Positions 2,566 through 18,748 of a stretch of 64,000 nucleotides of DNA are shown piece after piece. The DNA comes from Candidatus Hydrogenedentota bacterium (lineage in GTDB: Bacteria > Hydrogenedentota > Hydrogenedentia > Hydrogenedentales > CAILVY01). The notes beneath the pieces are model-generated. The model was given only the letters and a program-made list of their open reading frames with translations, was not told the DNA's origin and did no database searches. The position numbers and the translations under genes were made by a program. Location: positions 62,001 through 126,000 of the forward strand of contig JAKQOG010000108.1 in the NCBI GenBank assembly GCA_029565395.1, written 5' to 3'. The first letter of the stretch is position 1, and each line of letters starts with the position of its first letter.

Positions 2566-3726
2566 ATGATAAAGAAAAGAATCCAGATGCCCAAAACGAC
2601 CGCGTTGCAGGAGCGCATCAAAGAGTTGAGTTGTCTCTTGCATATGGCGGAGATTGCAGGAACACCCGGTATTTCCCTGGAGGACATCCTTCAGCAGACC
2701 GTTTCGCTGCTCATCTCTGCGTGGCAGTATCCTGAGATTACGACGGCGCGGATTGTTCTGGACGGCCAGAATTATGCGGCGGCAGGTTTCCGGGAGACGC
2801 GGTATATTCAGCGGGCGGATATAGTGGTTCATAGAGTGAAGCGGGGGTTTGCCGAGGTGGTCTATCTTAAAAAAAAGCCGGAACTTGATGAGGGTCCTTT
2901 TTTGCGGGAGGAGCGAAACCTGATCAACGCCGTGGCGCAGCAAGTGGGGTTGATTGCCGAGCGCAAGCAGGCGGAACAAGAACGTGCGCTACTGCAGAGC
3001 CAGCTTCGTCATGCCGATCGGCTTGCCACAATCGGGTTCCTCGCGGCGGGGGTGGCCCATGAATTGAACGAGCCGCTGGGCAACATCCTGGGGTTCGCAC
3101 AGTTGGCCAGGAAATGTCCGGCGTTGCCTGAAGCCGCCAACCAGGATCTGAAGAAAATCGAAACGGCGTCGTTGCATGCGCGGGAGGTCATCAGGAAGCT
3201 GCTGATGTTTGCCCGGCAGATGCCACCGGAGAAAACTCTGGTGGATATCAATCAGGTGGTACATGAAGGGCTGTACTTTATCGAAGCGCGTTGCGCCAAG
3301 GCGGGCATTGAGGTCGAATACGCTCTGGACTCCGCATTACCCTTGATTTTCGCCGATGCTTCTCAGATCAATCAAGTGCTGGTGAACCTTGTGGTCAACG
3401 CATTGCAGGCGATGCCGGAAGGCGGGAAGCTATTGATCCAGACGGAGACTGGCAAGGATCATATTTGCCTGAATGTTGAAGACACCGGCCCGGGGATGAG
3501 TCCGGACGTTCTTCAACGGGTTTTTGTGCCGTTCTTCACCACCAAGGATGTGGGGCAAGGCACAGGGCTTGGCCTGCCGGTGGTGCATGGCATCGTCACA
3601 TCGCACGAGGGAACTATTCTGATCCGGAGCGAGGTAGGGAAAGGAACCCGGTTTGAGATTCGCTTGCCGGTGGCGCCGTCAACAGAGACGGTCGAGGAGA
3701 ACCCGCACCATGTCCAAGAAGTCTGA
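2566..3726 (+). CDS. Cytosolic sensor histidine kinase (NtrB-like transmitter)
   Basis: A 386-aa kinase without membrane segments. Residues about 10-130 form a GAF-like sensory region followed by a coiled-coil stretch (ERKQAEQERALLQSQL). The phosphoacceptor H-box is GVAHELNEPLGNI (His about 165). The ATP-binding domain shows the N-box (NQVLVNLVVNALQAMPEGG), G1 (DTGPGM), F-box (FFTTK) and G2 (GTGLGL). All catalytic boxes are intact. A second ATG at 2587 is an alternative start; neither has a strong ribosome binding site. The gene overlaps the downstream sigma-54 response regulator by 17 bp, so the two are translationally coupled and presumably form one two-component system. The signal sensed is unknown; the neighbouring redox operon suggests a redox, oxygen, NO or NADH-related cue. 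Confidence 0.93.
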   Translation: MIKKRIQMPKTTALQERIKELSCLLHMAEIAGTPGISLEDILQQTVSLLISAWQYPEITTARIVLDGQNYAAAGFRETRYIQRADIVVHRVKRGFAEVVYLKKKPELDEGPFLREERNLINAVAQQVGLIAERKQAEQERALLQSQLRHADRLATIGFLAAGVAHELNEPLGNILGFAQLARKCPALPEAANQDLKKIETASLHAREVIRKLLMFARQMPPEKTLVDINQVVHEGLYFIEARCAKAGIEVEYALDSALPLIFADASQINQVLVNLVVNALQAMPEGGKLLIQTETGKDHICLNVEDTGPGMSPDVLQRVFVPFFTTKDVGQGTGLGLPVVHGIVTSHEGTILIRSEVGKGTRFEIRLPVAPSTETVEENPHHVQEV

Positions 3727-5077
3727 AAAGGAACGGATTCTGGTGGTGGATGATTCCGCGCCAACACTTGAGGTTTTGCAGCGGAATCTGACGGCGGAAG
3801 GGTATCAGGTGTTGACCGCTTCCAGCGTGGCCATGGCTATTGAATTGCTTGAGGCGAATAAGGTGGATTTGGTGATTACGGACTTCAAGATGCCCAAAGT
3901 GAGCGGCATGGACCTGGTGCGGCACGTGCGGGAGAATTTCCGGGATACGGAGGTCATGATGATTACCGGATATCCTTCGATCGAAGGGGCGGTCAAAGCG
4001 ATTAAGACTGGAGCGGAAGAGTATCTCTCGAAACCGTTTACGGACGAGGAACTGTCGTCCGCGGTCCGGCGGGCGCTTGACAAGCTGTATGTTCAGCGAT
4101 GCGGCGGCGTATCCGGGACGCAATTGCCGGTGATACCCCATGGCTTGTTGGGAGAATCGGAGGCGATGCGGAAGATAATTCAGGCGATTATGAAGGCGGC
4201 CACGACTTCTGCAACCGTGCTGATCACGGGCGAGAGCGGCACGGGGAAAGAGCTTGTTGCGCGCGCCGTGCACTATGGCAGTGAGCGATCCTCCGCGCCG
4301 TTTGTACCGGTCAATTGCGGCGGAATCCCCGACGGGTTGCTCGAAAGCGAGTTGTTCGGTCATGTCAAAGGGGCGTTCACGGGGGCTACGGAATCGCGTG
4401 CGGGGCTGTTTCATGCAGCGGACGGGGGCACGATTTTTCTCGACGAAGTGGGGGAAACCAGCACTTCCATGCAAGTTAAGCTGCTGCGGGTCTTGGAGTG
4501 CAAGGAGATTTGCATGGTAGGCTCCAATCGGGCCCGGAAAGTGGATGTGCGGATCCTGGCCGCCACCAACAAAGACCTGTTAGGGCTTGTAAGGAAGGGC
4601 AGTTTCCGCAAAGATTTGTTTTATCGGTTGAACGTCATCACTATTGCTCTCCCGCCGTTGCGGGAACGGGGTAATGACATCCTGCTCTTAACTACCCATT
4701 TTGCCCAACGGTTCGCGGCGGAGTTGGGCCGTCCGCAGCCCCATTTTTCGGAACGCGCCATGGCCGTGCTGAGAAAGTACGACTGGCCCGGCAATGTGCG
4801 CGAACTCGAGAATGTGGTCCAACGGCTTGTTCTCATGACGGATGGAGACCGCATTGACGCCCCCGATCTGCCCCGGCTTATGCGGTTCTCGGCCTTAAAA
4901 CACGCAGGACTGGATCGCACCTTGGCAGAAGTGGAAGCAGAGTATATCAATAATGTCCTCGCGAATGTACGCGGCAACAAGACCCGTGCCGCGGAGATCC
5001 TGGGCATTGACCGCAAGACTTTGCGGGAGAAACTTCGCGGATCGCTGATGGTTCCGGAGCATTCGTTGGGCGATTGA
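3710..5077 (+). CDS. Sigma-54-dependent response regulator (NtrC family)
   Basis: A 455-aa activator. I chose the ATG at 3710 because GAGGAG lies 10 nt upstream and the protein then begins directly with the receiver domain; 19 extra upstream codons read as junk. The receiver domain (1-125) has DD at 14-15, phospho-acceptor Asp 58 in ITDFKMP and a Lys in YLSKPF. The AAA+ domain has Walker A GESGTGKE, the sigma-54 contact loop GAFTGA, Walker B TIFLDEVGE and the R-finger region FYRLNV. The C-terminal Fis-type helix-turn-helix ends in RAAEILGIDRKTLREKLR. It overlaps the kinase gene. The nearest visible -24/-12 promoter is immediately downstream (5262-5277) with an inverted repeat at 5126-5146, so its likely target is the adjacent redox operon. 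Confidence 0.95.
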   Translation: MSKKSEKERILVVDDSAPTLEVLQRNLTAEGYQVLTASSVAMAIELLEANKVDLVITDFKMPKVSGMDLVRHVRENFRDTEVMMITGYPSIEGAVKAIKTGAEEYLSKPFTDEELSSAVRRALDKLYVQRCGGVSGTQLPVIPHGLLGESEAMRKIIQAIMKAATTSATVLITGESGTGKELVARAVHYGSERSSAPFVPVNCGGIPDGLLESELFGHVKGAFTGATESRAGLFHAADGGTIFLDEVGETSTSMQVKLLRVLECKEICMVGSNRARKVDVRILAATNKDLLGLVRKGSFRKDLFYRLNVITIALPPLRERGNDILLLTTHFAQRFAAELGRPQPHFSERAMAVLRKYDWPGNVRELENVVQRLVLMTDGDRIDAPDLPRLMRFSALKHAGLDRTLAEVEAEYINNVLANVRGNKTRAAEILGIDRKTLREKLRGSLMVPEHSLGD

Positions 5078-5125
5078 GCGCGGGGCACTTGCATTTGTCA
5101 GGGGTTGGCTTCTCCGGGGAATGAG

Positions 5126-5146
5126 ACTGGGGAGATTTTCCCCAGT
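5126..5146. promoter_or_regulatory. Candidate upstream activating sequence for the NtrC-type regulator
   Basis: A perfect inverted repeat ACTGGGGA-N5-TCCCCAGT. Its centre is about 150 bp upstream of the transcription start predicted from the -24/-12 element, a typical distance for sigma-54 enhancer sites. No T-run follows, so it is a poor Rho-independent terminator for the preceding regulator gene. Confidence 0.6.
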
Positions 5147-5261
5147 GGCCGAAAACTCTCCGGTGTAGAGAGAAACCTGTATCGGGCTGTTTGTGGCAGA
5201 TCTCCATAGAACAACCTCTTTTTCTTTATCCAGCAACACTTTCCAGGGGGCATCGTTCCAT

Positions 5262-5277
5262 TGGCACACCAATTGCT
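5262..5277 (+). promoter_or_regulatory. Sigma-54 promoter (-24/-12) of the redox operon
   Basis: TGGCAC (5262-5267), five bases, TTGCT (5273-5277) match the sigma-54 consensus TGGCAC-N5-TTGCW exactly. The start of transcription should be near 5288, about 30 nt before the first gene of the operon. An NtrC-family activator is encoded just upstream. Confidence 0.85.
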
Positions 5278-5319
5278 TTCACATGTCTGAACATATAACT
5301 AAAAAAGGGAAAGATACGA

Positions 5320-5589
5320 ATGAACTCCCCAATCGGTGAAACGCTATGCACCAAATGCAAGTGGGCGGCGGGTTGCACGTTCCCGAGCGAGTCGGGTGAA
5401 CCCATCCTCTCGTGCGAGTCCTTCGAACGCCTTCAAGGCTTGACGCGCAAGAGAACGGCATCACTCGCATCGATCAATCCGAGCCGGATTAATGGGCTTT
5501 GCGGGGATTGCGGGAATCGAGAGACGTGTGTTTTTCGGCAGCGGGAAGGCGGAACATGGCATTGTGAAGAATACCGTTTAGACGGATAG
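5320..5589 (+). CDS. Small cysteine-rich protein, first gene of the sigma-54 redox operon
   Basis: An 89-aa hydrophilic protein with nine Cys in two similar halves: CTKC-x4-GC...SCESF and CGDC-x5-C...WHCEEY. Each half could form a metal or Fe-S binding knuckle. There is no signal peptide or membrane segment. A purine-rich AAAGGGAAAG precedes the ATG. It is the first gene after the -24/-12 promoter and lies 7 nt from the NuoE-like gene, so it probably belongs to the same complex or serves its maturation or electron transfer. Small proteins of this type occur next to hydrogenase/NADH-dehydrogenase-like operons in anaerobes, but I do not recognise a named family. Confidence 0.75.
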   Translation: MNSPIGETLCTKCKWAAGCTFPSESGEPILSCESFERLQGLTRKRTASLASINPSRINGLCGDCGNRETCVFRQREGGTWHCEEYRLDG

Positions 5590-5596
5590 GGAACCG

Positions 5597-6469
5597 ATGA
5601 AACGGGATGGAAGGAGTTATGTGGTAGCGCAGGTAGATGAACGGGAGGTTTTGGCGGTTGTCGCCAAGCATGAAGCGGGTTGCGGCGGATTGATCGCTAT
5701 CCTGGAGGAGATCCAGGCAATATATGGTTATCTTCCTGAACAGGCGTTACGGCAGGTAGCGCAGGCTACGGACCGCTCATTAGTGGACATTTATGGCGTT
5801 TCGACCTTCTATCGGTCATTCAGCATGCAGCCGCGGGGCAAGCATCGGGTTTGTGTCTGCTTGGGAACGGCTTGTCACGTTCGGGGTGCTCAGAGTGTCA
5901 CGGAGGAGTTTGAACAGCGCCTTGGGATACAGTCAGGGGAGACTTCGGAAGACGGCGAGTTCAGCCTGGAAACCGTGAATTGCCTGGGCGCATGTGCGCT
6001 GGGCCCTGTCACGGTGGTAGACGGCAAGTATGTCTCAAAGGTAAAAACCTCCCAGGTTCGCGGCCTCTTGGACAAGGCCCGGAAGGGTTATGCACAGAGT
6101 GGAAACGGGGAAGACAAAGAGGCTTTTGCTATTGCGGTGAGTTGTCCCGTTTGCAGCCACAGTCTGATGGATGCGGGTTTCCCTTTGGATGACCATCCTT
6201 CCATCCATGTGAAGGTTTCCATCGATCACCAGGAGGGTTGCCTAAGGCTTTCCTCTCTGTATGGCAGCGGCAGCCTTGCTTCCGAGTGCGAGATTCCACC
6301 CGGTGAAGTGGCCATATTCCGGTGTCCGCACTGTCTGGCGGAACTTACCGGGGCAGATGATTGTTCTATATGTCAAGCCCCGATGGCCCCAATGGCTATT
6401 GTTGGAGGTGGAACCATGCATGTCTGTTTGCGGCGGGGCTGCCCGGGACATCTGCTTGACCTCCAATAA
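5597..6469 (+). CDS. NuoE/HydC-like NADH dehydrogenase 24-kDa [2Fe-2S] subunit with extra Cys-rich C-terminus
   Basis: A 290-aa protein. Residues about 15-160 form the thioredoxin-like [2Fe-2S] domain of complex I subunit NuoE and of HydC/HndA: the helical part GGLIAILEEIQAIYGYLP, then ligands in VCLGTACHVRGA and NCLGACALGP. This subunit passes electrons from the flavin of the NuoF-like partner. The normal family length is about 160 residues; here about 120 more follow, with CPVC, FRCPHC, CSIC and two further Cys, probably zinc ribbons. The extension is unusual. It sits 7 nt after the Cys-rich gene and upstream of the NuoF-like gene in the sigma-54 operon. Confidence 0.9.
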   Translation: MKRDGRSYVVAQVDEREVLAVVAKHEAGCGGLIAILEEIQAIYGYLPEQALRQVAQATDRSLVDIYGVSTFYRSFSMQPRGKHRVCVCLGTACHVRGAQSVTEEFEQRLGIQSGETSEDGEFSLETVNCLGACALGPVTVVDGKYVSKVKTSQVRGLLDKARKGYAQSGNGEDKEAFAIAVSCPVCSHSLMDAGFPLDDHPSIHVKVSIDHQEGCLRLSSLYGSGSLASECEIPPGEVAIFRCPHCLAELTGADDCSICQAPMAPMAIVGGGTMHVCLRRGCPGHLLDLQ

Positions 6470-6521
6470 CAAAAGGAAATAGGCAAACGGGTGGGTGATG
6501 AAGGGTGAAGGAGACACCGCA

Positions 6522-8369
6522 GTGAAGTTATCGTCGATTGAAAAGCTGACGGAATGGCGAAGTGTACTCGCGAAGAAAAACGCCTCTGGGAAATCCTGTC
6601 TCTGTATCTGCGCGGGCACAGCCTGTCAAGCCAGTGGCTCGAATGAGATTATCCGAGCCACGAAACGGGCTTTGATCGAACGCCGTCTGCTGGATAGGCT
6701 CTCGCTTCGGATCACGGGCTGCCACGGGTTTTGTGAAATGGGGCCCTTTGTTTTGACCGAGCCGCAGCAGGCATTCTATACCCAGGTGAAGGCGGAGGAT
6801 GTGCCCCGGATCATCGATGCGGCGCTTGCGGGCGAATATGTTGAAGAGTTGTTGTATAAGGATCCTTCGACGGGGCAGAAGTACTACCACCGCGGGGATA
6901 TCCCGTTTTTCAAAAACCAGCAACGGACGATTCTCGAGGCGAACCAGAAAATTGACCCGATCCGGATTCACGACTACATTGCGGAAGGCGGCTACCGCGG
7001 TTTAGAAAAGGTGTTGTCTGTCCAGGATCCTGTCTGGGTTGTGGAAGAGGTGAAGAAAGCGGGTCTGCGCGGCCGGGGCGGCGCGGGATTCCCCACGGGC
7101 CTGAAATGGGAGATGTTGGCGAAGCAGCGGAGCAATGGGGGCAAATTCCTTGTCTGCAATGCCGACGAAGGCGACCCAGGCGCGTACATGGATCGCAGCA
7201 TTCTGGAAGGCAACCCGCACAGTATTATCGAGGGAATGATTATCGGTGCGTATGGAACCGGCGCCACCAGCGGGGTGGTGTATGTGCGCAATGAATACCC
7301 AATCGCCATCAAACACTTGACCGCCGCGCTCCAGCAGGCGCGCACTCTAGGTCTCCTCGGCGGAAATATTCTGGGTGGCGGATTTTCCTTCGATATTGAA
7401 ATCGTGCGAGGTGCAGGGGCGTTTGTGTGCGGCGAGGAAACAGCGCTTATCCGATCCATCGAAGGAAAAATGGGAGAGCCGCGGCAGCGTCCGCCGTTTC
7501 CGATACAGCGGGGAATTAACGGAAAGCCCACCGCCATCAACAACGTGGAAACCTGGGCCAACATCCCGGTGATTATTGTGCGGGGCGCGGACGAATACGC
7601 GAAAATCGGAACCAAGAACAATTCCGGGACAAAGATATTCAGCCTGGTGGGGAAAATCCGGAACACAGGCCTGGTCGAAGTGCCCATGGGAATGACCATC
7701 AAGGAAATTGTGTATAACATCGGGGGCGGTCCCGTGGGCAAGGCGCAGATCAAGGCCGTTCAGACCGGCGGGCCGTCAGGCGGGTGCATCCCGGCCAGCA
7801 TGTTCGATCTTCAGATTGATTATGACAGCCTGTCGCGTGCAGGGTCCATTATGGGCTCCGGCGGCATGATCGTCATGGATGAGAACACCTGCATGGTGGA
7901 TCTTGCCAAATATTTTATGCGCTTCCTCAAAGAGGAATCCTGTGGCAAGTGTTTTACGTGCCGGAAAGGCACACAGCGGATGTATGAAATTCTGGACGAC
8001 ATTACGACAGGCAAGGGCACCCTTGAACACCTTGATCTTCTTGAAGAACTGGCCCATGTGGTGAAAGACACGACGATGTGCGGGCTGGGTCAGACCTCGG
8101 CTAATCCGGTGCTTTCCACCTTGCGTTATTTTCGCGATGAGTACCTGGCGCATATCCAGAACAGCCGCTGTCCCGCCCAAGTGTGCAAACCGCTGCTTTC
8201 ATACTCGATCAATAACAATTGCATAGGCTGCCAGGCCTGTGGCAAAGCCTGTTCCGTAAATGCCATTCATGGAGAGCGGAAGCAACGGCACTTTATTGAT
8301 GCATCCAAATGCATCAAGTGTGGAACATGCCGAAGTGTATGCAAGTATGACGCTGTGGAGGCTGCCTAG
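6522..8369 (+). CDS. NuoF/HydB-like NADH-binding flavo-iron-sulfur subunit
   Basis: I prefer the GTG at 6522 because AAGGAG lies 8 nt upstream; in-frame GTG 6495 and ATG 6498 are alternatives. The 615-aa protein has an N-terminal thioredoxin-like [2Fe-2S] domain (CAGTACQASG and TGCHGFCEMG). The NuoF core follows with the FMN/NADH loops GLRGRGGAGFPTGLKW and NADEGDPGAYMDR and the [4Fe-4S] site ESCGKCFTCRKGT. The C-terminal 2[4Fe-4S] ferredoxin domain has CIGCQACGKAC and CIKCGTCRSVC. This order is that of HydB/HndC from electron-bifurcating [FeFe] hydrogenases and related NADH:acceptor complexes. It oxidises or reduces NAD(H) at FMN and feeds the clusters of its partners. It ends 4 nt before the ferredoxin-like subunit gene. 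Confidence 0.93.
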   Translation: MKLSSIEKLTEWRSVLAKKNASGKSCLCICAGTACQASGSNEIIRATKRALIERRLLDRLSLRITGCHGFCEMGPFVLTEPQQAFYTQVKAEDVPRIIDAALAGEYVEELLYKDPSTGQKYYHRGDIPFFKNQQRTILEANQKIDPIRIHDYIAEGGYRGLEKVLSVQDPVWVVEEVKKAGLRGRGGAGFPTGLKWEMLAKQRSNGGKFLVCNADEGDPGAYMDRSILEGNPHSIIEGMIIGAYGTGATSGVVYVRNEYPIAIKHLTAALQQARTLGLLGGNILGGGFSFDIEIVRGAGAFVCGEETALIRSIEGKMGEPRQRPPFPIQRGINGKPTAINNVETWANIPVIIVRGADEYAKIGTKNNSGTKIFSLVGKIRNTGLVEVPMGMTIKEIVYNIGGGPVGKAQIKAVQTGGPSGGCIPASMFDLQIDYDSLSRAGSIMGSGGMIVMDENTCMVDLAKYFMRFLKEESCGKCFTCRKGTQRMYEILDDITTGKGTLEHLDLLEELAHVVKDTTMCGLGQTSANPVLSTLRYFRDEYLAHIQNSRCPAQVCKPLLSYSINNNCIGCQACGKACSVNAIHGERKQRHFIDASKCIKCGTCRSVCKYDAVEAA

Positions 8370-8373
8370 GAAT

Positions 8374-9060
8374 ATGAAGGGAAAAGTTACTGTCACCATT
8401 AATGGGCTCATTGTGGAGGTTGAAAAAGGCATGACGATCCTCGAGGCCGCCCAGTTCCTTGGATTTCCCATTCCGACGTTGTGCCACATGGAGGGCTTGT
8501 CCCCGTATGGCGCGTGCCGGCTGTGTGTTGTTGAGATTGGCGAAGGGGCGCGCGCGAAGCTGGTAACATCCTGCACCTATCCCGTGGAAGAAGGCCTAAA
8601 GGTGCGCACGGCGTCCACCCGGGTGTTGCGGGCGCGGAAGATGATCCTGGAACTGCTGCTGGCTTCCTGTCCGCAATCCAAAATCATCCAGGACCTTGCC
8701 GCGGCCCATGGGGTGCGGCAGCAGCGGTTTCGCCAGGAGCACGAAGACTGCATCCTGTGCGGATTATGCGTGCGGATGTGTGAGGAACAGATGATGGCGA
8801 AGGCGATCGGCTTCCGCAACCGCGGAGAGAAACGAAGCATCGGCACGCCGTTTGACGTTCACTCGGAAACGTGCCGGCTGTGCGGCGGGTGCATGTATGT
8901 GTGCCCGGCCTGCCAGCTCCGCTGCACCTACAACGAGCCTGAGAAAGCCATTTGCGGCGGGTGCGAAAATCTCACGCCGCCGTGTATTGAAAAAGATCCT
9001 TTTGATGACATGATGTGTTACATGACCCCGTGTGTTGCCTGTGAACAGCCCAAGAATTGA
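8374..9060 (+). CDS. [2Fe-2S]/2[4Fe-4S] electron-transfer subunit (HydA N-terminal/NuoG-like, no H-cluster domain)
   Basis: A 228-aa protein starting at the ATG four bases after the NuoF stop; upstream codons in frame lie inside the preceding gene. A plant-type [2Fe-2S] domain (CHMEGLSPYGACRLC...SC, residues about 30-70) is followed by two [4Fe-4S] motifs, CILCGLCVRMC and CRLCGGCMYVCP. An unusual Cys-rich tail (CQLRC, CGGC, CYMTPCVAC) follows. It matches the N-terminal Fe-S part of HydA/NuoG or HoxU-like subunits, but the catalytic H-cluster domain of hydrogenase is absent. It probably carries electrons from the NuoEF-like diaphorase to the glutamate-synthase-like enzyme encoded next, whose start is only 23 nt downstream. 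Confidence 0.88.
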   Translation: MKGKVTVTINGLIVEVEKGMTILEAAQFLGFPIPTLCHMEGLSPYGACRLCVVEIGEGARAKLVTSCTYPVEEGLKVRTASTRVLRARKMILELLLASCPQSKIIQDLAAAHGVRQQRFRQEHEDCILCGLCVRMCEEQMMAKAIGFRNRGEKRSIGTPFDVHSETCRLCGGCMYVCPACQLRCTYNEPEKAICGGCENLTPPCIEKDPFDDMMCYMTPCVACEQPKN

Positions 9061-9083
9061 CAGATGGAAAGGATGCGAAGACG

Positions 9084-10670
9084 ATGGAGAGTTCATTTTC
9101 AAAAGTAAACGCTTCGGCGGCCACGCTGACCAAGAACCGCACCGTGGGTTCCGTGGTGCCTGCATCAGGCCTGTGTGTGACCTGTGTGGACGGCTGCATT
9201 GGCATGTGCGAGGTCGGCAAGTCGGCCTATCGCGGCCACGAGGTCATTTATCCCCAGCCCTTTGGGGTGATTACCACGGCGGGCGAAAAGACTTATCCCG
9301 TGGACTATTCCCATTTTAATATCATGGGCACGGCCGTGGGCGCGCACGGAATCGAGGCGGACAGTGACAAGGCGATATTCCCGGCGGTGAACCTGGAGGT
9401 CCGCTTCGGGCACGACAACGGCATCAAGTATCGCTACCCGTGGCATATCCCGGGCATTGGTTCGACTAATGTCGCAAAGAATAACTGGGAAGGACTGGCC
9501 ATTGGCTCCGCCATCGCGGGAACCGGACTCACCATCGGCGAGAACGTCGTCGGGATGGACGAAGAGACCGTCATCAAGAAAGGACGCGTGGTGGACACGG
9601 TGGACCTCAAGCGCCGCGTGAAACTCTACCAGGACCACCAGCGGGACGGTTATGGCGCCATTATTGTTCAGGCAAACGTTGAAGACAGCCGGCTGGGCGC
9701 CCTCGAATACGCCATCGAGAAGCTCAATATTCAGTGCGTGGAACTCAAGTGGGGACAAGGCGCCAAAGACATCGGGGGCGAAGTCAAGATAGACAACCTC
9801 AAGAAAGCCCAACTGCTGTATGAACGCGGCTATATCGTGCTTCCCAATCCCATGGATCCCGATGTTATCAGGGCATTTGAGCACGGTGCTTTCAATGCCT
9901 TTGAACGGCACTCCCGGGTGGGCATGGTGGAGGAAGAATCGTTTGCAGAACGCGTGGAAGGCCTGCGGCGCGCCGGAGCCAAGTACATCTTCCTTAAAAC
10001 GGGCGCGTACCGCCCGGCGGATTTAGCCCGCGCGATCCGCTATGTATCAAAGTACAAATTGGACCTGTTGACGGTGGACGGAGCGGGCGGCGGCACCGGC
10101 ATGAGCCCCTGGCACATGATGAATGAATGGGGTATGCCGCCGGTGCATCTGCACTCGCTGCTCTACCAATATGCCAAGCGCCTGGCGGATCGTGGTGAAT
10201 ACCTGCCCGCGTTGGCCGTGGCCGGCGGATTCTCCTTTGAAGATCACATTTACAAGGGCCTTGCCCTGGGCGCGCCCTTCGTCAAACTCGTCGGCATGGC
10301 CCGCGCCCCCATCGCCGCAGCCATGGTCGGCAAAACCATCGGTCGCACCATTGACACCAACAACGTCCCGGTCTACATCTCGCGCTTCGGCAATTCCAAG
10401 GATGAGATTTTTGTAACGGCGGTGGAATTGCGCAGGAAACTGAACGACATTGAATTCGAGAAGGTTCCCACGGGCGCTTTGGGCCTGTATACGTACTACG
10501 AACGCCTGGCCCAGGGACTACGCCAGCTCTTGGCGGGAAACCGGAAGTTCTCCATGGAGCACGTGTCGCGCGATGATATCGCGGCTCTGACCCATGAAGC
10601 GGCTGATATCTCCGGCATACGCTATATCATGGACGTGGACCAGCAAGAGGTGGATTCCATTCTCGGATAA
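9084..10670 (+). CDS. FMN-binding glutamate-synthase-family oxidoreductase with N-terminal Cys motif
   Basis: A 528-aa protein. The ATG at 9084 has AAAGG about 14 nt upstream. It corresponds to the central FMN/TIM-barrel domain of glutamate synthase large subunit: DGAGGGTGMSPW, ALAVAGGFSFEDHIYKGLALGA and FVKLVGMARAPI are typical phosphate and FMN-binding segments. There is no amidotransferase (GATase II) domain and no beta-helix domain. The N-terminus has CVTCVDGCIGMC (about residues 28-39), a Cys cluster likely to bind an Fe-S centre. True glutamate synthase activity is uncertain, since such stand-alone proteins often have unknown substrates. The context (NADH and ferredoxin-like subunits directly upstream) suggests it is the acceptor or catalytic component of the complex. 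Confidence 0.85.
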   Translation: MESSFSKVNASAATLTKNRTVGSVVPASGLCVTCVDGCIGMCEVGKSAYRGHEVIYPQPFGVITTAGEKTYPVDYSHFNIMGTAVGAHGIEADSDKAIFPAVNLEVRFGHDNGIKYRYPWHIPGIGSTNVAKNNWEGLAIGSAIAGTGLTIGENVVGMDEETVIKKGRVVDTVDLKRRVKLYQDHQRDGYGAIIVQANVEDSRLGALEYAIEKLNIQCVELKWGQGAKDIGGEVKIDNLKKAQLLYERGYIVLPNPMDPDVIRAFEHGAFNAFERHSRVGMVEEESFAERVEGLRRAGAKYIFLKTGAYRPADLARAIRYVSKYKLDLLTVDGAGGGTGMSPWHMMNEWGMPPVHLHSLLYQYAKRLADRGEYLPALAVAGGFSFEDHIYKGLALGAPFVKLVGMARAPIAAAMVGKTIGRTIDTNNVPVYISRFGNSKDEIFVTAVELRRKLNDIEFEKVPTGALGLYTYYERLAQGLRQLLAGNRKFSMEHVSRDDIAALTHEAADISGIRYIMDVDQQEVDSILG

Positions 10671-10692
10671 ACAAGCAACGTGGTTATTCCCT

Positions 10693-10740
10693 CGGCGCCG
10701 TGTTGGGCCGCACACCACCACGGTGCCGTTGTTATTGGGG
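10693..10740 (+). terminator. Strong hairpin between the oxidoreductase and flavodiiron genes
   Basis: CGGCGCCGTG (10693-10702) pairs with CACGGTGCCG (10719-10728) with one G-U pair. The loop is 16 nt and TTGTTATT follows. It may be a leaky terminator that lowers expression of the flavodiiron gene relative to the upstream operon, or an RNA-processing or stability element. Confidence 0.45.
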
Positions 10741-10775
10741 GCATAGAAGTGCTTAATACCGAAAAAGGGGGGGAA

Positions 10776-10794
10776 TGTGCAACAATACCGCACA
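10776..10794. promoter_or_regulatory. Possible operator upstream of the flavodiiron gene
   Basis: TGTGC-N9-GCACA forms a short perfect dyad about 50 nt before the start codon at 10843. No convincing -35/-10 pair was found around it. It could be a regulator site or chance. Confidence 0.25.
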
Positions 10795-10842
10795 ATTTTC
10801 AGGCACATCGGATTTTAATGGCGGTTACGCGAGGAGACTATT

Positions 10843-12030
10843 ATGCATTGTCCGTTGCGCAATGGGATCGAATGGATAGGGTATGTGGATTGGACCATCC
10901 GTGATTTTCACAGCTACACCACCGAACAAGGGACAACATACAACGCCTATCTGGTGTTGGACCAGCAGAATGCATTGATCGATACCGTCAAAGCGCCCCA
11001 TGGGGAGGATCTGCTGCGGAATATCGCAGAGGTGGCGGATCCTGCATCGATTCGGTGGGTTGTATGCAACCATGCGGAGCCGGATCACGCCGGAGCATTG
11101 CCAAAAATTCTATCCGCGCTGCCCAACGCAACATTGGTCTGCAACGAGAAGTGCCGGCAGGCGCTTTCGCAGTATTTTGATACTGCTTCATGGAAGATTA
11201 AAGTCATTAGCCCCGGTGAAACGCTGCCCTTGGGCGAACGGACCCTCGAATTTATCAACACGCCGCTCGCACACTGGCCTGAGTCTATGTTCACGTATCT
11301 TCCGCAGGAAAAAATCCTCTTTTCGATGGACGCATTCGGACAACACTATGCATCGGCCCAGCGGTTCGATGACGATGCCTGCTTGGACGCCGCAATGATC
11401 GAAGCCAAGACCTATTTTGCAAACATTCTTATGCCCTATGGCGTTCCGACGGCGAAAGCCCTGACGGCGGCGGGGAAACTGGAAATTGAAATGATCGCGC
11501 CGTCGCACGGCATCATCTGGCGCACGCATTTGCCGAAGATTCTGGATGCCTATCGGGAGTGGACCTCCGGCGCACCCAAGCGCAAGGTGGTCGTGCTCTA
11601 TGATTCCATGTGGGAGAGCACGGCGCAGATGGCCAACGCCGTTTATGAAGGCGCGATCCACGAGGGCGTGGATGTCCGCTTGATTCATATCCGCCGGACC
11701 AATCTTACCCGCATCGCCACGGAGATCTTCGACGCGGCGGCGGTAGCCTTCGGGTCCGCTACCTTGAACATGTGGATGATGCCGATGGCCGGGGCGGTGC
11801 TGGCATATCTCCAGGGATTAAAACCGTCCAAGAAGGCGGCACTTGCATTTGGTTCGTACGGCTGGAGCAAGGGCGGCCCGGAGGTGGTGCATGAAGCTCT
11901 CGAAGCCATGAAATGGGACATGATCAGCCCGCCCATCAAAGCGCAATACCGTCCCACGCCACAAATTCTGGAGGAATGCCGTGCCGCCGGCGCGCAGCTC
12001 GCGGAAAAGGCCTTGGCGGCGGGAGGATAA
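10843..12030 (+). CDS. fprA: Flavodiiron protein (FprA-type NO/O2 reductase)
   Basis: A 395-aa A-type flavoprotein. The N-terminal metallo-beta-lactamase-like domain contains the diiron ligands in NHAEPDHAG (His77, Glu79, Asp81, plus His82). Further ligand candidates are in PLAHWPESM (His), FSMDAFGQH (Asp) and APSHGIIWR (His). The C-terminal flavodoxin domain starts at KRKVVVLYDSMWESTAQMA and binds FMN. No rubredoxin domain is fused. These enzymes reduce O2 or NO to harmless products in anaerobes, with electrons from rubredoxin, F420H2 or NADH-linked donors. A clear ribosome binding site (GAGGAG, 7 nt spacing) precedes the ATG. It lies 172 bp after the FMN oxidoreductase and shares its direction, so it may receive electrons from the NADH module and be induced by the adjacent sigma-54 regulator. 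Confidence 0.94.
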   Translation: MHCPLRNGIEWIGYVDWTIRDFHSYTTEQGTTYNAYLVLDQQNALIDTVKAPHGEDLLRNIAEVADPASIRWVVCNHAEPDHAGALPKILSALPNATLVCNEKCRQALSQYFDTASWKIKVISPGETLPLGERTLEFINTPLAHWPESMFTYLPQEKILFSMDAFGQHYASAQRFDDDACLDAAMIEAKTYFANILMPYGVPTAKALTAAGKLEIEMIAPSHGIIWRTHLPKILDAYREWTSGAPKRKVVVLYDSMWESTAQMANAVYEGAIHEGVDVRLIHIRRTNLTRIATEIFDAAAVAFGSATLNMWMMPMAGAVLAYLQGLKPSKKAALAFGSYGWSKGGPEVVHEALEAMKWDMISPPIKAQYRPTPQILEECRAAGAQLAEKALAAGG

Positions 12031-12184: not shown

Positions 12185-13531
12185 ATGGACATGACGGTTC
12201 CTAACAGGAAGCGTAGCGTTGCCATGCAAGCGGCCCTTGCGGTCATTGTGCTCATGGCGGGTGTGGGGTCGTACCTTGTCTTGGCGGGGATGCGGGAGCG
12301 CCCGCCGCAAACGGAGACTCCGGAAGCAAAGTTGAGCGTGGAAGTGTGGCGCATCCACCCCGAAGAGATTTCTGTTAGCATTACTGGCTATGGGACGGTG
12401 CGATCCCTAGATATGGTGGTTGTCACGCCTCAGGTGGCAGGAAAAGTGGTGGATGTGCATCCGAACCTTGACCTAGGGGGGGTAATCCAGCGGGAGGAGG
12501 TGCTTTTCCGCATTGAAGCGCGCGACTACGAAATTGCCAAGGCCCAAGCAGATGCGAAAATTGCTCAAATGAGGAGCACAATTGCCCTCCTGAAAAAGCA
12601 ATATGAAAATGACCAATCCCGGATTGACACACTCAAGCGGACGCGTGACTTGGCTGAAATTGAATTCAACCGGGACAAGGAATTATTCGATAAGCACCAA
12701 GTGGGCACGGAAGCCATGGTGCATATGTCGGAAGTGAACTTTAATCAGGCCAATGATACATTCACCATGGTAACGAATGCCATTGACCTGTACCCGCTTC
12801 GCATACAGGAAGCCGAGACAGGGCTTAGAGCGGCACAGTCCTTATTGGATCAGGCGTTAACCGCGCTGGAAAGAACCGAAGTGCGAGCCCCGTTTACCGG
12901 GCGGGTAAAAATGGCGCAAATCGAAGTGGGCCAATGCGTGGCTCCTGGGGTGCCCGCCGTTACGCTGGCCAATGACACCACGCTGGAAATCTCCGTGCCG
13001 CTGGACAGCCGTGATGTTGGGACATGGCTTGAGTATGAAGAACCGCAATCCCCTAATGGCGAAGCATGGTTTAGGAATGTGGACCCGGTGCGTTGCCAGG
13101 TAAAGTGGACCGAGGATCCGGAGAACAATCAGTGGCAGGGCACACTTGTGCGTGTTGAACGGTTTGATCCGATGACGCGCATGGTCACGGTAGCGGTTCG
13201 TGTGACGGGAGAGGATGCCTTGTCCAAGGACGGGGGAATGCCTTTGGTGGACGGCATGTTTTGCACGGTTGAGATTCCTGGCAAGACATTGCGCCAGGTA
13301 TTCCGTCTGCCGCGATGGGCGGTGACCTTCGAATCCGAGGTCTATGTGGCCAATGCGGAGTCGCGGCTGGAACGGCGCAAGGTAGGGATCATTCGTTCAG
13401 AAGAGGACGAGGTGTATATCTCTTCAGGACTGACGGAGGGAGATCTGGTTATTGTGACCCGCGTGGTCAGTCCATTGCCGAACTCCTTGCTGGAATACAC
13501 GATAACGAAGGAGGCGGCAGGCAACTCATGA
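12185..13531 (+). CDS. RND efflux periplasmic adaptor (membrane fusion protein)
   Basis: A 448-aa MFP. An N-terminal membrane anchor lies at residues about 15-35. The beta-barrel/lipoyl part begins with VVVTPQVAGKVVDVHPNLDLGG. A long alpha-helical hairpin spans about 115-215 (AKADAKIAQMRSTIALLKKQ, then RIQEAETGLRAAQSLLDQAL). The closing lipoyl half is ERTEVRAPFTGRVKMAQIEVGQ. The C-terminal region ends in a beta-rich membrane-proximal domain. It links the inner-membrane pump to the outer-membrane channel. An in-frame ATG at 12191 is an alternative start; the Shine-Dalgarno is weak for both. Its stop overlaps the pump start (ATGA), so the operon is translationally coupled. Confidence 0.92.
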   Translation: MDMTVPNRKRSVAMQAALAVIVLMAGVGSYLVLAGMRERPPQTETPEAKLSVEVWRIHPEEISVSITGYGTVRSLDMVVVTPQVAGKVVDVHPNLDLGGVIQREEVLFRIEARDYEIAKAQADAKIAQMRSTIALLKKQYENDQSRIDTLKRTRDLAEIEFNRDKELFDKHQVGTEAMVHMSEVNFNQANDTFTMVTNAIDLYPLRIQEAETGLRAAQSLLDQALTALERTEVRAPFTGRVKMAQIEVGQCVAPGVPAVTLANDTTLEISVPLDSRDVGTWLEYEEPQSPNGEAWFRNVDPVRCQVKWTEDPENNQWQGTLVRVERFDPMTRMVTVAVRVTGEDALSKDGGMPLVDGMFCTVEIPGKTLRQVFRLPRWAVTFESEVYVANAESRLERRKVGIIRSEEDEVYISSGLTEGDLVIVTRVVSPLPNSLLEYTITKEAAGNS

Positions 13532-16500
13532 GGGGTCTCCTCGCAGCATTTGCGCGCAACCGCGTCTTCGCCAACATGTTTATTGCGATTATTTACTTGG
13601 CCGGCTTTTTCGCGATGATGAAGATGGTCCGGGAGACCCTGCCCGAGATGGAGGTTGATCTTATTACAGTGGGCGTGGCATGGCCGGGAGCGGATCCGGA
13701 AGAGGTTGAGGAGGGGATTTGCCGCAAGATCGAGGAAGCAATAGAGAGCATCCAGGGGATCAAGCAATATAGCACCGTGGCCCAGGAAAACCTTGGGTAT
13801 GCGTACATTGAAGTAAACGAACGGTACGACCTCGCAACCGTAAAGGACCATGTCCGAAATGCCGTGGAAGCGATTTCAACCTTTCCCAAGGATGCTGAAC
13901 GCCCCATCACGGAGGCGCCCACATTCAAGGCGCACGTCCTCTTTGTTGCTTTGTTCGGAGAAAGCCTGCGCGAGCGGGAACTGAAAGAATGGGCGGAGCG
14001 GATGATGGAGGAGATCCGGGCGCTGCCGCCGGTGTCGCAAGTGGAAGTGCTCGGGGCGCGCGAGTACGAAATTGCCATTGAGCTTTCAGAGGAGCGGCTT
14101 CGCGAGTATGGATTGACTTTTGAACAGGTGGCGCTGGCGGTCCGCGCCAGCAACCTGAATCTTTCCGGCGGGCTGATGCGGACGGAAGGAGAGGAAATCC
14201 GCCTGCGGACGCTTGGCCGGAAGTATTCCACCGATGAATTCGCAAGGATTATTGTGTATGCGCGCCCGAACGGCGATGTCATTACGCTCGACCGCATCGC
14301 CACAATCAAAGATGATTTCACCGAAGATTATGTGATTTCCCGCTATAACGGCAAACCATGCCTTACGCTGATGGTCATGAAAACGGAAGAAGAGGATACC
14401 CTGGCGATTGATGAAGCTGTAAGCGCATATGTGGCCCAGAAAAAATTGCCGGAAGGCGTTCATGCGGAGATCTGGGGGGCAATGGCGGATGAACTGCAGG
14501 CACGGATTAACCTGCTTGTGCGGAATGGCCTTTTCGGCCTGAGCCTTGTGTTTCTCATGCTTTGGCTGTTCCTTGATATACGGCTGAGTTTCTGGGTGGC
14601 GCAGGGCATGCCGTTCTGCTTGTTTGGAGGGATGGCGCTTATCTGGTTTATGGGATCCACCTTGAACATGATCTCCTTGTTCGCAATGATCATGGCGCTC
14701 GGAATGCTCGTGGATGACGCCATCGTCGTGGGTGAGGCCATCTATCAACACAGGCGGAATGGGGAGCCTCCCTTGCAAGCGGCGATCAATGGTGTCATGG
14801 AGGTCGCGCTGCCTGTTCTAGCAGCAGTTACGACCACTATCGTGGCCTTCATCCCCTTATGTTTCGTCAGCGGGGTCATGGGCCGGTTGATCGTGATACT
14901 TCCAATAGTGGTTATTTCAGCGTTGTCCATTTCCCTGATCGAGTGCCTTCTGTGCATTCCCGCCCATTTGAACCACCTTCCTGATTTGAACCGGCCGGAT
15001 TTGGGCCGCAATGTAATGGCCCGGTTTGGCCGCCGGTTTCACAAGGCCGTGGATGATGGGGTGTACTGGTTCATCTATCATGCCTACGCGCCCTTTGCGC
15101 GCTTGGCCATACGGTGGCGCTATGTCAGCCTGGCCGTGGGGATTGCGGTCCTTTTGAGCGCGGGGGGGATCCTGGCGAGCGGAGTACTAAAATTTCAGTT
15201 TTTCCCGAAGATTGACGGCAATGAAATGGTTGCCCGCATCGAGTTTCCCACAGGCACCCCCCTGCCCGTAACGAAAGAAGCGGTGGCCAAGGTTGAAGAA
15301 GCCATTCGGCGCGTTGAGGAAAAAACAACTACCGTGTCAGGAAAGCCGCTCATCGTGAACACCTTCTCTCTGGCGGGGAGCACCATGAGTGTGGAAGGGT
15401 CCGCTCGCGGAAGCCATCGCGGCGCGGTTCGCGTGGAAATGCTCCCCTCATTGGAACGGGGAATTCATACAGAGGATTTAAAGGCGGCGTGGGAGAAAGA
15501 GGTGGGTCTCATTCCCGGCATTAAGTCGCTGGTATTTCGCGGGGGCATAGAGGGGCCGCCCGGCGCCCCCATCGAGATTTGGCTGCATGGACCAGATCTC
15601 GATGCCATCCAGAAAGCCGCTCATGAAACCATTGACAAGTTGAGAACGTATGCGGGGGTCTATCAAATCGAGGATGATTTTTCCCCGAGCAAGAACGAGA
15701 TTAAGCTTCGGCTGCGCCCCGACGCCCGGGCCCTGGGGCTGACGGAGGCCGATCTTGCCCGCCAGATTTATGGGGGCTACTTCGGCGAGGAAGCAGTGCG
15801 CCTTCAACGCGGCCGGGACGACATCCGTGTCCGCGTCCGGTATCCCGCCGAAGATCGGACGCGGGTAAGCGAACTTGAACGCATCCGCATCCGAACGCCA
15901 TTAGGGTTCGAGGCCCCTCTGCTATCTGTTGCCGACATAAGCTACGGCCCTGGCCCGACTTTTATCAAGCGGACCGACGGGGAACGGCGGGTCAAGGTGA
16001 CGGCGGATGTCAATGTGACGGTTGCCAACAGTAGCGAGGTCATCGCTGATCTGGGAGAGGCGTTCATACCCGCGCTTCAGAAAAAATATCCGGGGACTTC
16101 GGTTTCCTTTGAAGGAGAGCAACGCAACATGCGGGAATCGTTCGACAGCCTGTATGTAAGCTATCCCTTGGCCCTTCTGGGCATATTCATCCTTATCGCG
16201 TCCACCTTCCGATCCTACCTCCAACCGCTCGTTATTATGGTAATCATTCCGTTCGGAACCATTGGGGCGCTTTTGGGTCATCTTGCCATGGGTTACGATC
16301 TCTCCATTATGAGTTACTTTGGCATGGTGGCGCTGGCGGGAATCGTTGTAAATGATGCCATAGTGCTCATTAATCATCTCAATTCCCTCATAGGCGGCGG
16401 GGAACCATTTTTTGATGCGCTCTGGAAAGCGGGTGCGCGCCGTTTCATGGCGGTCTTCCTGACCACCATCACGACCGTGGGAGGCATGTCAACGCTGATA

Positions 16501-16758
16501 TTCGGACGAGATATTCAGGCGCAATTCCTCATCCCCATGGCCATAACGGTCTCGGCAGGACTCATATTCGCCACCCTGCTCACTTTGCTCTTCATCCCTT
16601 GCCTGTTGGGCATTCTTAATGACATGCGCCGTGCGGCGCACTATCTGGCCACGGGACGCTGGCCAACGCCGGAAGAGGTTGAGCCCGCCTGGATAGAGAG
16701 CAAGGAAGTGGATGAGGAGTCTTCGCCCCAGTTCGTTGAACCTGTGGGGGTTACATGA
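13528..16758 (+). CDS. RND efflux pump inner-membrane transporter (AcrB/MdtB/CusA-like superfamily)
   Basis: A 1076-aa protein, typical RND length. The start is the ATG of the ATGA overlap at 13528 with GGAGG 13-17 nt upstream; codons upstream in this frame lie within the adaptor gene. The first membrane helix (about 8-27) is followed by a periplasmic porter domain (GVAWPGADPEEVEEGICRKI). The TM4 proton-relay segment is GMLVDDAIVVGE and the TM10 segment is GIVVNDAIVLINH. Twelve membrane helices can be placed in two repeated halves. The substrate is unknown; absence of the CusA Met cluster and the aspartate relay favour organic compounds or lipids over Cu/Ag. Its stop overlaps the TolC-type gene start. 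Confidence 0.94.
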   Translation: MRGLLAAFARNRVFANMFIAIIYLAGFFAMMKMVRETLPEMEVDLITVGVAWPGADPEEVEEGICRKIEEAIESIQGIKQYSTVAQENLGYAYIEVNERYDLATVKDHVRNAVEAISTFPKDAERPITEAPTFKAHVLFVALFGESLRERELKEWAERMMEEIRALPPVSQVEVLGAREYEIAIELSEERLREYGLTFEQVALAVRASNLNLSGGLMRTEGEEIRLRTLGRKYSTDEFARIIVYARPNGDVITLDRIATIKDDFTEDYVISRYNGKPCLTLMVMKTEEEDTLAIDEAVSAYVAQKKLPEGVHAEIWGAMADELQARINLLVRNGLFGLSLVFLMLWLFLDIRLSFWVAQGMPFCLFGGMALIWFMGSTLNMISLFAMIMALGMLVDDAIVVGEAIYQHRRNGEPPLQAAINGVMEVALPVLAAVTTTIVAFIPLCFVSGVMGRLIVILPIVVISALSISLIECLLCIPAHLNHLPDLNRPDLGRNVMARFGRRFHKAVDDGVYWFIYHAYAPFARLAIRWRYVSLAVGIAVLLSAGGILASGVLKFQFFPKIDGNEMVARIEFPTGTPLPVTKEAVAKVEEAIRRVEEKTTTVSGKPLIVNTFSLAGSTMSVEGSARGSHRGAVRVEMLPSLERGIHTEDLKAAWEKEVGLIPGIKSLVFRGGIEGPPGAPIEIWLHGPDLDAIQKAAHETIDKLRTYAGVYQIEDDFSPSKNEIKLRLRPDARALGLTEADLARQIYGGYFGEEAVRLQRGRDDIRVRVRYPAEDRTRVSELERIRIRTPLGFEAPLLSVADISYGPGPTFIKRTDGERRVKVTADVNVTVANSSEVIADLGEAFIPALQKKYPGTSVSFEGEQRNMRESFDSLYVSYPLALLGIFILIASTFRSYLQPLVIMVIIPFGTIGALLGHLAMGYDLSIMSYFGMVALAGIVVNDAIVLINHLNSLIGGGEPFFDALWKAGARRFMAVFLTTITTVGGMSTLIFGRDIQAQFLIPMAITVSAGLIFATLLTLLFIPCLLGILNDMRRAAHYLATGRWPTPEEVEPAWIESKEVDEESSPQFVEPVGVT

Positions 16759-18449
16759 CCGGACGCACTGGATATTACCGATTGGCGGTCCGCCCGCCAC
16801 TCTACCTTGTTTGCTGTATCGTGTTGTTCTTTATCGAGGCAGAAGCCTTTGGGGAAATGGCGAAAGCGGATTGCCCGAAGGCGCCGGACACCGGCGAAAG
16901 TCACGTTGTGCCCCAAGCCGCTTCTTCCCAACAATCAGGACCGGATGCTGATATCACACTTGTGCAGGAAGACAGGAATGCGGGCGCGGCAGATGCATTG
17001 GATCTTGCCACGGCCCAGCGGCGCGCGTTGATGGCGAATCCCTCCCTCCATGCCGTAGCGGAACAAGTCGCCCAGGCCCGGGAGTACGTCCGTCAGGCAC
17101 GATCCCTGTATTTTCCACAACTCTCCTTATCCTACCGGGCCATGCGGACCCGATTTGACGGAGACTCCACGGAGGATATTTTTAATTTCGAGGAAGAAGG
17201 CCGCCGCACCCATCGCACCCACCGCGTCCATGAGACGCGCGTTCCGCGGGATGTAGGCCCGGACGACTCCGAACAGGATGGATTTGATACCGAAGACATT
17301 TCCGAAGCCCTGCGTGCTTTATTCGGCAGCGATGGCGCGCTGGACAACCTGTTAGGGGCCGGCGGGCTGGGAGGTTACTCATCAGAGGAGGACACCCAGA
17401 ACTACACGTTCGGCGTAACCGCGGGTCTGCTGCTTTTTGACGGCTTTTCGCGCCGGATGACTTCGGCGATGGCGCGCTTTGGCAGGGAGGAGACCAAGGC
17501 GGCGCTTCAAGAGGCGCGCCGCCTGCTGCTTGATGCCGTGGCGCTAAGTTTCTATGGCGTCCAGCTTGCGCGTGAAAACATACAAGTCGCCCGGAGCGAC
17601 AAAGAATTTAATGCGCGTCTCGTGAAGGAAGTGACGATCCGGCACAATCTGGGAAAAGCCTCCCTGAGTGACGTGCTCAACTTTGAAGTCCGGCAACAGG
17701 CGGCGGAAGCCGCTTTACTAGCCACAGAAAAGGAATACGAAACCGCGCGGATCGCCTTGGCCCTTGTCATGGGCGAACCAGATGTCCGGCTGCCGGATGG
17801 CCTTGATCTGGCTCCTCTGCCAGAAGAAAGTGATGAAACCATGCGTCCGCCCGATGAGGCCGCCGCAATCCGGTATGCCCTCGAACACCGGCCAGATCTC
17901 CAGCAGAAAGGGCACGGCATCAAACGCGCCCAAGCATCTGTCAAGGAACGTTATGGCGCTCTATCACCGCGCGTGTCACTGTTTGCCTCCTGGAACGATC
18001 AGCGCATGGAAAGCGGAGAATATGAACGCAAGACGGACTCCACGACCGTCGGTGTTGATGTCGCTTATGATGTATTTACAGGCGGGCGCAAAGTCTCGCG
18101 CATCCTGGAGGCCAGGCATGCCAAACGTCAAGCCGAGTTCCGGCGCGCCGAAACCGAACAAAAGGTTATTTCGGATGTACGGAAAGCATTGCTTGGCCTG
18201 AGAATCGCCCAACAACAAATCATCCTTCAGCGGACCGCCTCTGAAAATGTCCGGAGAAACCGTGATCTTGTGGAGAAGGAGTATCAAGCCGGGAAAGCCC
18301 CCTTGGTCAGGCTAAACCAGGGCCAGCGCGATCTTGTCGAAGCCCAGGCGCGCCTCGCGTTCGCCCGGGTAAACCTGATCAAGGCATGGCATGAACTTCG
18401 GACATCCACGGCCGAGACATTGGAGGCATTTCCAGACAGAACACCATGA
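16755..18449 (+). CDS. TolC-family outer-membrane efflux channel with an acidic/His-rich insertion
   Basis: A 564-aa protein starting at the ATGA overlap with the pump gene. The N-terminus has a hydrophobic signal segment (about 12-32) and a low-complexity stretch before the OEP domain begins with DLATAQRRALMANPSL. Two OEP repeats are visible, the first with TFGVTAGLLLFDGFSRR and the second with TVGVDVAYDVFTGGRK. An insertion at about residues 140-210 is very rich in Arg, His, Asp and Glu (RTHRTHRVHETR, then a DDSEQD segment), is unusual for TolC and may lie at the extracellular loop. It completes the tripartite efflux system. About 65 nt later comes a small peptide gene. Confidence 0.9.
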   Translation: MTGRTGYYRLAVRPPLYLVCCIVLFFIEAEAFGEMAKADCPKAPDTGESHVVPQAASSQQSGPDADITLVQEDRNAGAADALDLATAQRRALMANPSLHAVAEQVAQAREYVRQARSLYFPQLSLSYRAMRTRFDGDSTEDIFNFEEEGRRTHRTHRVHETRVPRDVGPDDSEQDGFDTEDISEALRALFGSDGALDNLLGAGGLGGYSSEEDTQNYTFGVTAGLLLFDGFSRRMTSAMARFGREETKAALQEARRLLLDAVALSFYGVQLARENIQVARSDKEFNARLVKEVTIRHNLGKASLSDVLNFEVRQQAAEAALLATEKEYETARIALALVMGEPDVRLPDGLDLAPLPEESDETMRPPDEAAAIRYALEHRPDLQQKGHGIKRAQASVKERYGALSPRVSLFASWNDQRMESGEYERKTDSTTVGVDVAYDVFTGGRKVSRILEARHAKRQAEFRRAETEQKVISDVRKALLGLRIAQQQIILQRTASENVRRNRDLVEKEYQAGKAPLVRLNQGQRDLVEAQARLAFARVNLIKAWHELRTSTAETLEAFPDRTP

Positions 18450-18516: not shown

Positions 18517-18693
18517 ATGAGCAACATGAGAATACACGGATTGGCCGGCCGGATTCCGGCAAAGGCGTCAAGTTTCAAAAATGACATTGACATCGCATTT
18601 GACATCATGGACCTGTTTTTTTGGGTGATTGATTTGATAAATGCCTTTCTGGATTTCATGCGCAATTTGGGTGACTATCTGAGCGGGGAATAA
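18517..18693 (+). CDS. Small hydrophobic protein downstream of the efflux operon
   Basis: A 58-aa protein with an excellent Shine-Dalgarno (AAGGAG, 7 nt before the ATG at 18517; the in-frame ATG at 18496 lacks one). The N-terminal 22 residues are basic and polar. Residues about 24-45 are hydrophobic with several Asp (IAFDIMDLFFWVIDLINAFL) and could form an amphipathic or membrane helix. The tail is GDYLSGE. It is not recognised. A role as a pump accessory peptide or independent secreted peptide is possible. Confidence 0.6.
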   Translation: MSNMRIHGLAGRIPAKASSFKNDIDIAFDIMDLFFWVIDLINAFLDFMRNLGDYLSGE

Positions 18694-18748
18694 CTCGCCG
18701 CTATTGAATAACTCCGGCGATTACCCGGCAACCATGGAGGATACCCTC

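Follow-up and report, generated by a model that had tools for sequence, protein, structure and literature searches.

The stretch of DNA analysed here (the window) comprises 64,000 nucleotides from a Hydrogenedentota genome of 7.5 Mb in 290 contigs, and all coordinates follow the numbering of this 64 kb window. Positions 2566-10670 probably hold a sigma-54-dependent two-component circuit together with one operon for a soluble, probably bifurcating enzyme of the Bfu (HydABC) type that carries a GltB-type third-substrate module; the unit is here named Glt-Bfu. It recurs in many bacterial phyla and seems not to have been described before; a glutamate-synthase-type Bfu was not found described in the open-access literature searched. 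A more specific proposal is advanced tentatively, its likelihood being placed somewhat below even: Glt-Bfu would be a bifurcating or confurcating glutamate synthase/dehydrogenase that ties the interconversion of 2-oxoglutarate and glutamate to concurrent turnover of NAD(H) and ferredoxin, is controlled by its own sigma-54 pair and is present in many uncultured phyla; it would also have repeatedly given up the BfuB tail in favour of a GltD module that binds NADP.

Conserved gene order and the Bfu core

A scan of GTDB genomes for the glutamate-synthase-like (Glt) protein yielded at least 564 confirmed loci; in the best 80 of these the Glt proteins show 75-88% identity. The 80 loci belong to Planctomycetota, Zixibacteria, KSB1, Ignavibacteriota, Acidobacteriota, Myxococcota and other Deltaproteobacteria, as well as to Bacteroidota, Armatimonadota, Latescibacterota, Coatesbacteria, Spirochaetota and others. 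Within the window's own order the distribution is patchy: clear close homologues of the unit are present in approximately 13 of the 60 genomes compared and two further ones at ~50% identity, and the unit was not found in G001, a genome of the same genus. In the Glt protein tree, the window sequence falls within a fully supported clade of its own order, which includes Candidatus Hydrogenedentes UBA2224.

The gene order kinase, activator, small Cys protein, BfuC, BfuB, BfuA and Glt is complete in the relatives from the same order that have enough flanking sequence (loci L021, L024, L025, L026 and L027), and in L030 it is visible from the small Cys protein onward. BfuA stands directly 5' of Glt in every locus with room upstream, none being without it, the genes for BfuC, BfuB, BfuA and Glt occur together on all contigs of sufficient length, and a linked kinase and activator are found in 36 of the 55 loci having at least 8.9 kb upstream. 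An earlier note on this DNA had suggested a search for the same arrangement in related genomes; the kinase-to-Glt order indeed recurs in many phyla. The six downstream redox genes that it had grouped together divide into five that form the conserved unit and a sixth, the flavodiiron gene at 10843-12030, that lies outside it.

All genes between 2566 and 12030 are on the + strand. BfuC (5597-6469) is a NuoE/HydC-like [2Fe-2S] protein (PF01257, 2.5e-45) with a C-terminal Cys-rich, zinc-ribbon-like extension. BfuB (6495-8369) is NuoF/HydB-like, with a flavin mononucleotide (FMN) site, an NADH site, clusters B1-B5 and a C-terminal 2x[4Fe-4S] segment; Pfam recognises PF01512 (Nuo51 FMN), PF10531 (SLBB), PF10589 (NADH_4Fe-4S) and PF00037 (4Fe-4S ferredoxin). 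Its best solved relative is HydB of a bifurcating NiFe-hydrogenase (7t2r, E = 8e-225, full length), and the ligands of B1-B5 align with A. mobile HydB (residues 35-621), the alignment taking in the N-terminal [2Fe-2S] site, B1, the CxxxxC region and the two C-terminal [4Fe-4S] sites. The NuoF-like subunit possesses the full cluster set that marks ferredoxin-interacting, bifurcating enzymes, a point overlooked in the earlier note; clusters B2-B5 are absent from non-bifurcating homologues (Schut et al. 2022, PMC9304861).

BfuA (8374-9060) is Type 2-like according to Pfam and its Cys motifs, with one [2Fe-2S] and 2x[4Fe-4S]. It contains A1, A2 and A4-type motifs, including two CxxCxxCxxxC, and no His-ligated A3; among solved structures, 9mqx chain A is the closest to it. 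The C-terminus carries additional conserved Cys residues specific to the Glt-Bfu family, because of which the absence of A5 is less sure. All domains that define BfuA, BfuB and BfuC in Schut et al. 2022 (PMC9304861) have a Pfam counterpart in the window and, under that published definition, the enzyme has a Type 2 layout. On sequence grounds, the complex very probably belongs to the Bfu family, and real electron bifurcation by it is also probable, if less firmly so.

The gene for the small Cys protein (5320-5589) sits between the promoter and the enzyme genes. It encodes 89 residues with two Cys4 motifs (CxxCx5Cx12C and CxxCx5Cx11C); its position is conserved and its eight Cys are invariant across phyla, and its two CxxC-C-C motifs end with EEY/F. 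A search of Pfam and NCBIfam gave no match, and the protein is probably metal-binding. As to BfuC, the window protein has 290 residues with the Cys-rich extension, as in other phyla, and several Hydrogenedentota relatives are short (~183-196 residues). In L030, a second NuoEFG/HydABC-like set (L030:1410-5074) adjoins the Glt-Bfu operon on the opposite strand, together with a response-regulator-like gene.

The two-component circuit, its operator and its promoter

The soluble sensor histidine kinase (2566-3726) contains the Pfam domains HisKA and HATPase_c, preceded by a GAF-like N-terminal region that Pfam does not recognise; some of its relatives have an extra N-terminal GAF domain. In other loci the operon is directly preceded by kinase homologues that are 49-71% identical. 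The kinase gene overlaps by exactly 17 bp, as the earlier note had reported, with that of an NtrC-type response regulator (3710-5077, start ATG 3710). The latter combines Response_reg, Sigma54_activat and HTH_8 (Fis) domains, its AAA+ domain bears the GAFTGA sigma-54 contact motif, and its homologues in linked loci are 60-82% identical; the Pfam domains agree with the kinase and NtrC-type activator that had been proposed. In some loci, the same strand encodes another large protein with a similar GAF-like N-terminus 3' of the operon (L042:11606-13885 and L084:11848-14649, kinase-like in L084).

Downstream of these genes, the perfect inverted repeat claimed previously is present at 5126-5146 (ACTGGGGAGATTTTCCCCAGT). 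Two perfectly matching 8-bp arms flank its 5-nt centre (ACTGGGGA-GATTT-TCCCCAGT), and by repeat and matrix scan it is the putative activator-binding palindrome (operator site 1), representing the best-scoring match of the operator matrix within the window. A degenerate copy, operator site 2 (5144-5164), follows 18 bp 3' with a matrix score of 7.7, which is weak in the window. The exact -24/-12 element of the earlier note is likewise found, at 5262-5276 on the + strand (TGGCACACCAATTGC): it reads TGGCAC-N5-TTGC with GG-N10-GC spacing, and the predicted start lies at ~5288. The sigma-54 two-component set is complete, with a kinase, a receiver/AAA+(GAFTGA)/HTH activator, a -24/-12 promoter and an upstream putative operator.

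Comparison of homologous upstream regions extends these features beyond the window. The palindrome GGGG-N7-CCCC occurs in 19 of 43 such regions vs at most 4 in ten shuffles. A symmetric operator matrix built from these palindromes finds a site in 43/43, a count that is partly circular since those 43 regions also served to refine it. The operator consensus is the palindrome YGGGGA-N5-TCCCCR, usually as a tandem pair 18 bp apart; where a second copy exists (39 regions), it is exactly 18 bp off in 36. When one mismatch is allowed, the -24/-12 element is present in 30 of the 43 regions, the shuffle mean being 0.27/43. Furthermore, in equal 3.5-kb stretches the operator accompanies all 36 loci with a linked kinase/activator vs 3 of the 19 without (Fisher p = 3e-11, only indicative since the loci are related).

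Within its own genome, the combined operator and promoter pattern matches three times, with operator scores of 28.6 at this locus and ≤6.3 and ≤12.6 at the others. A wider regulon in this genome is rejected, only this locus scoring high for the operator. Since the genome has one convincing copy of the operator and promoter architecture, the circuit is regarded as specific to this operon; the activator is inferred to bind 5126-5164 and to switch on this operon alone. The loose half-operator GGGGAN5YCCC, with 152 genome matches vs 79 for the reversed control, is uninformative. Dedicated regulation of the operon is considered highly probable, and the dedicated two-component/sigma-54 circuit on an NADH-linked flavo-iron-sulfur operon, as first proposed, is borne out by the joint conservation of genes, tandem operator and promoter across phyla. 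Their tight co-occurrence provides a ready sequence signature that can serve to annotate Glt-Bfu and to probe the signal to which its kinase responds. Elsewhere in the window, an operator-like palindrome (18682-18702, score 20.2) lies just 5' of a predicted lipoprotein-like gene; it was set aside as a second operator, no -24/-12 element having been noticed nearby.

The third substrate and competing explanations

The Glt subunit (9084-10670, with an alternative start TTG at 9057) is a glutamate-synthase-like FMN TIM-barrel protein according to Pfam, AF2 and Foldseek. Pfam assigns it to Glu_synthase with 49 bits vs a cut-off of 20.4, in a partial match covering profile positions 185-304, and the AF2 model is a barrel with a pTM of 0.84. 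Foldseek retrieves FMN barrels of both hydroxy-acid oxidases and glutamate synthases (7mfm, 1ofd); the identity is 16-17% to the latter, the highest among the matches listed, and 10-14% to the oxidases. The motifs QGAK and GGTGxSP are common to Glt and canonical GltB, and the Gln and Lys of QGAK presumably lie where glutamate synthase binds 2-oxoglutarate. The N-terminus contains an invariant CxxCxxxCxxxC. Because the polypeptide has no glutaminase domain, Glt is classed as GltB-like only and not as a glutamate synthase. Searched as a profile against the PDB, the Glt alignment gave no match at 1e-3.

The surroundings of the operon likewise point to glutamate. The operons of L065 and L077 contain glutamate dehydrogenase genes, and such genes directly adjoin the operon in L054 (on both sides), L056, L058, L068 and L088, with further ones nearby; the operon-linked enzymes belong to at least two subfamilies, and their carriers to different phyla. 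A binomial estimate for this adjacency gives 8.6e-12, which is indicative, as it assumes two genes per 3500 and independent loci. In addition, of the 74 tree rows for which the BfuB tail was scored, 48 carry a GltD-type FAD/NAD(P) module there (~2/3 of loci), and the window and 25 other tree rows have a Fer4 tail with no GltD module. On well-supported branches of the Glt tree the tail label switches at least 6 or 7 times. Since the tail varies by locus, the enzyme is taken to consist of BfuBC, BfuA and Glt, with the NAD(P) module optional. The repeated swap of the BfuB C-terminus is between a 66-residue 2x[4Fe-4S] tail and a ~510-residue GltD module, and the tail differs even among closely related Glt subunits (L079/L081, L083/L104 and others).

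Taking these features together, we regard a bifurcating or confurcating oxidoreductase linked to glutamate as the likeliest function and give about an even chance to glutamate/2-oxoglutarate as the third substrate. In the proposed mechanism, the phosphorylated activator would bind 5126-5164 and open sigma-54 polymerase at 5262-5276. BfuBC would then trade electrons with NAD(H) and ferredoxin, and BfuA would hand electrons to the Glt subunit via its own and the extra Cys clusters. The FMN of Glt would interconvert glutamate and 2-oxoglutarate, with 2-iminoglutarate as the intermediate, or act likewise on a closely related 2-oxo/2-amino acid, and ammonium/glutamate metabolism would thereby be tied to the NADH and ferredoxin pools. 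The 2-oxoglutarate + ammonium/glutamate couple lies near -0.12 V, which makes the model thermodynamically plausible because it would let NADH oxidation pay for ferredoxin reduction. If true, nitrogen metabolism becomes a further process tied to energy conservation at the level of ferredoxin, and a function is assigned to an abundant unnamed gene cluster (at least 564 loci) of mostly uncultured bacteria.

Several observations weigh against this interpretation. The first Foldseek match of Glt is flavocytochrome b2, Pfam detects no glutaminase (GATase_2) domain, the cysteines that hold the 3Fe-4S cluster in canonical glutamate synthase are missing from the alignment, and the profile-profile similarity to GltB is weak (39% probability). 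Glutamate dehydrogenase neighbours occur in a minority of loci only. The genome of the window also encodes a full-length GltB and a glutamate dehydrogenase, so that glutamate synthesis alone needs no Glt-Bfu. Bifurcation is deduced from cluster content alone and, on the regulatory side, the operator matrix was scored on the regions used to refine it; less circularity attaches to the seed count, to the 18-bp spacing and to the result of 3/19.

The lead of flavocytochrome b2 and the glycolate/lactate oxidases among the Foldseek matches, together with the low similarity to canonical GltB, would also suit a Bfu-linked hydroxy-acid dehydrogenase, in which Glt has a different 2-oxo/2-hydroxy acid as its substrate (such as lactate, glycolate or 2-hydroxyglutarate). 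This is judged unlikely, given the higher identity to the glutamate synthase structures than to the oxidases, the Pfam assignment and the glutamate dehydrogenase genes among the neighbours. Moreover, Glt reads GAGGGTGMSP, with no His, at the motif that we take to correspond to the one harbouring the catalytic His of the oxidases.

A transhydrogenase-like hub, comparable to Sporomusa Nfn/Stn, would have the Glt FMN act only as a relay and NADP(H), through GltD, as the third partner. The fusion of GltD to BfuB in 48 of the 74 rows speaks for it; the window and 25 other rows with a Fer4 tail and no GltD, as well as the constancy and high conservation of the Glt subunit (75-88% in the best 80 of at least 564 loci), make it improbable.

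The earlier note had instead read the unit as an NADH-to-flavodiiron electron path induced by nitric oxide (NO) or O2, and the flavodiiron gene (10843-12030) does lie on the same strand, 172 bp 3' of the operon. No terminator was found between them, so read-through from the operon is possible in the window genome. In the related loci, no flavodiiron gene follows the operon on the operon strand; in L065 one is located ~2 kb from the operon on the opposite strand. The closest orthologue (77%) stands alone in the same-genus genome G001, which is without the Glt-Bfu cluster; G011 has both an orthologue and the cluster, on different contigs, and further orthologues have unrelated surroundings. A comparison of the NorR-norVW type leads to the same result, the flavodiiron gene not being the conserved regulated gene. 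A role of the flavodiiron protein as the operon's terminal oxidase is rejected by gene order and stand-alone orthologues, the NO/O2 path is not supported and appears highly improbable, and the gene is probably merely a neighbour of the unit. Directly 3' of it, an RND efflux adaptor, a pump and a TolC-like gene occupy 12185-18449.

Comparison with known systems

Among described enzymes, Bfu Type 2 (e.g. Wor-Bfu; Schut et al. 2022, PMC9304861) is the same in its BfuB with FMN and B1-B5, its BfuC with one [2Fe-2S], its short BfuA with A1/A2/A4 and no A3, and its added third-substrate subunit. It differs in that the third-substrate subunit of the window is a glutamate-synthase-type FMN protein; the published classification contains no such third subunit, and its main text contains neither 'glutamate' nor 'GltA' (PMC9304861). 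The window enzyme also has an extra Cys-rich BfuA C-terminus, an extra Cys-rich BfuC domain, a dedicated kinase/activator and the small Cys protein.

Glutamate synthase (the GltB FMN domain plus GltD) shares with Glt the barrel fold, QGAK and GGTGxSP, and a GltD-like module is fused to BfuB in many relatives; unlike it, Glt has no glutaminase, an N-terminal CxxCxxxCxxxC instead of the 3Fe-4S cysteines, and a linkage to a Bfu core. The Sporomusa-type Nfn/Stn enzymes (PMC7483475, PMC10482914; Nfn-Bfu in PMC9304861) likewise combine a Bfu-type core with a GltD/NfnB-type module. Their NADP-binding module resides in BfuA, whereas in Glt-Bfu such a module, where present, takes the place of the BfuB tail, and the complex has a GltB-type subunit in addition. 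The HydDB A2 'glutamate synthase-linked' [FeFe]-hydrogenases (PMC5037454) are similar in that genes for hydrogenase-type electron transfer are linked to Glt-type genes, but the window has no hydrogenase domain and has a NuoF-type subunit, which the A2 rule excludes.

On the regulatory side, the circuit resembles the NtrBC/AtoSC-type systems and NorR-norVW in its sigma-54 activator, palindromic upstream operator and -24/-12 promoter. NorR lacks a receiver domain. The activator of the window, in contrast, has one together with a cognate kinase, and differs further from NorR-norVW in its operator and in its single target operon.

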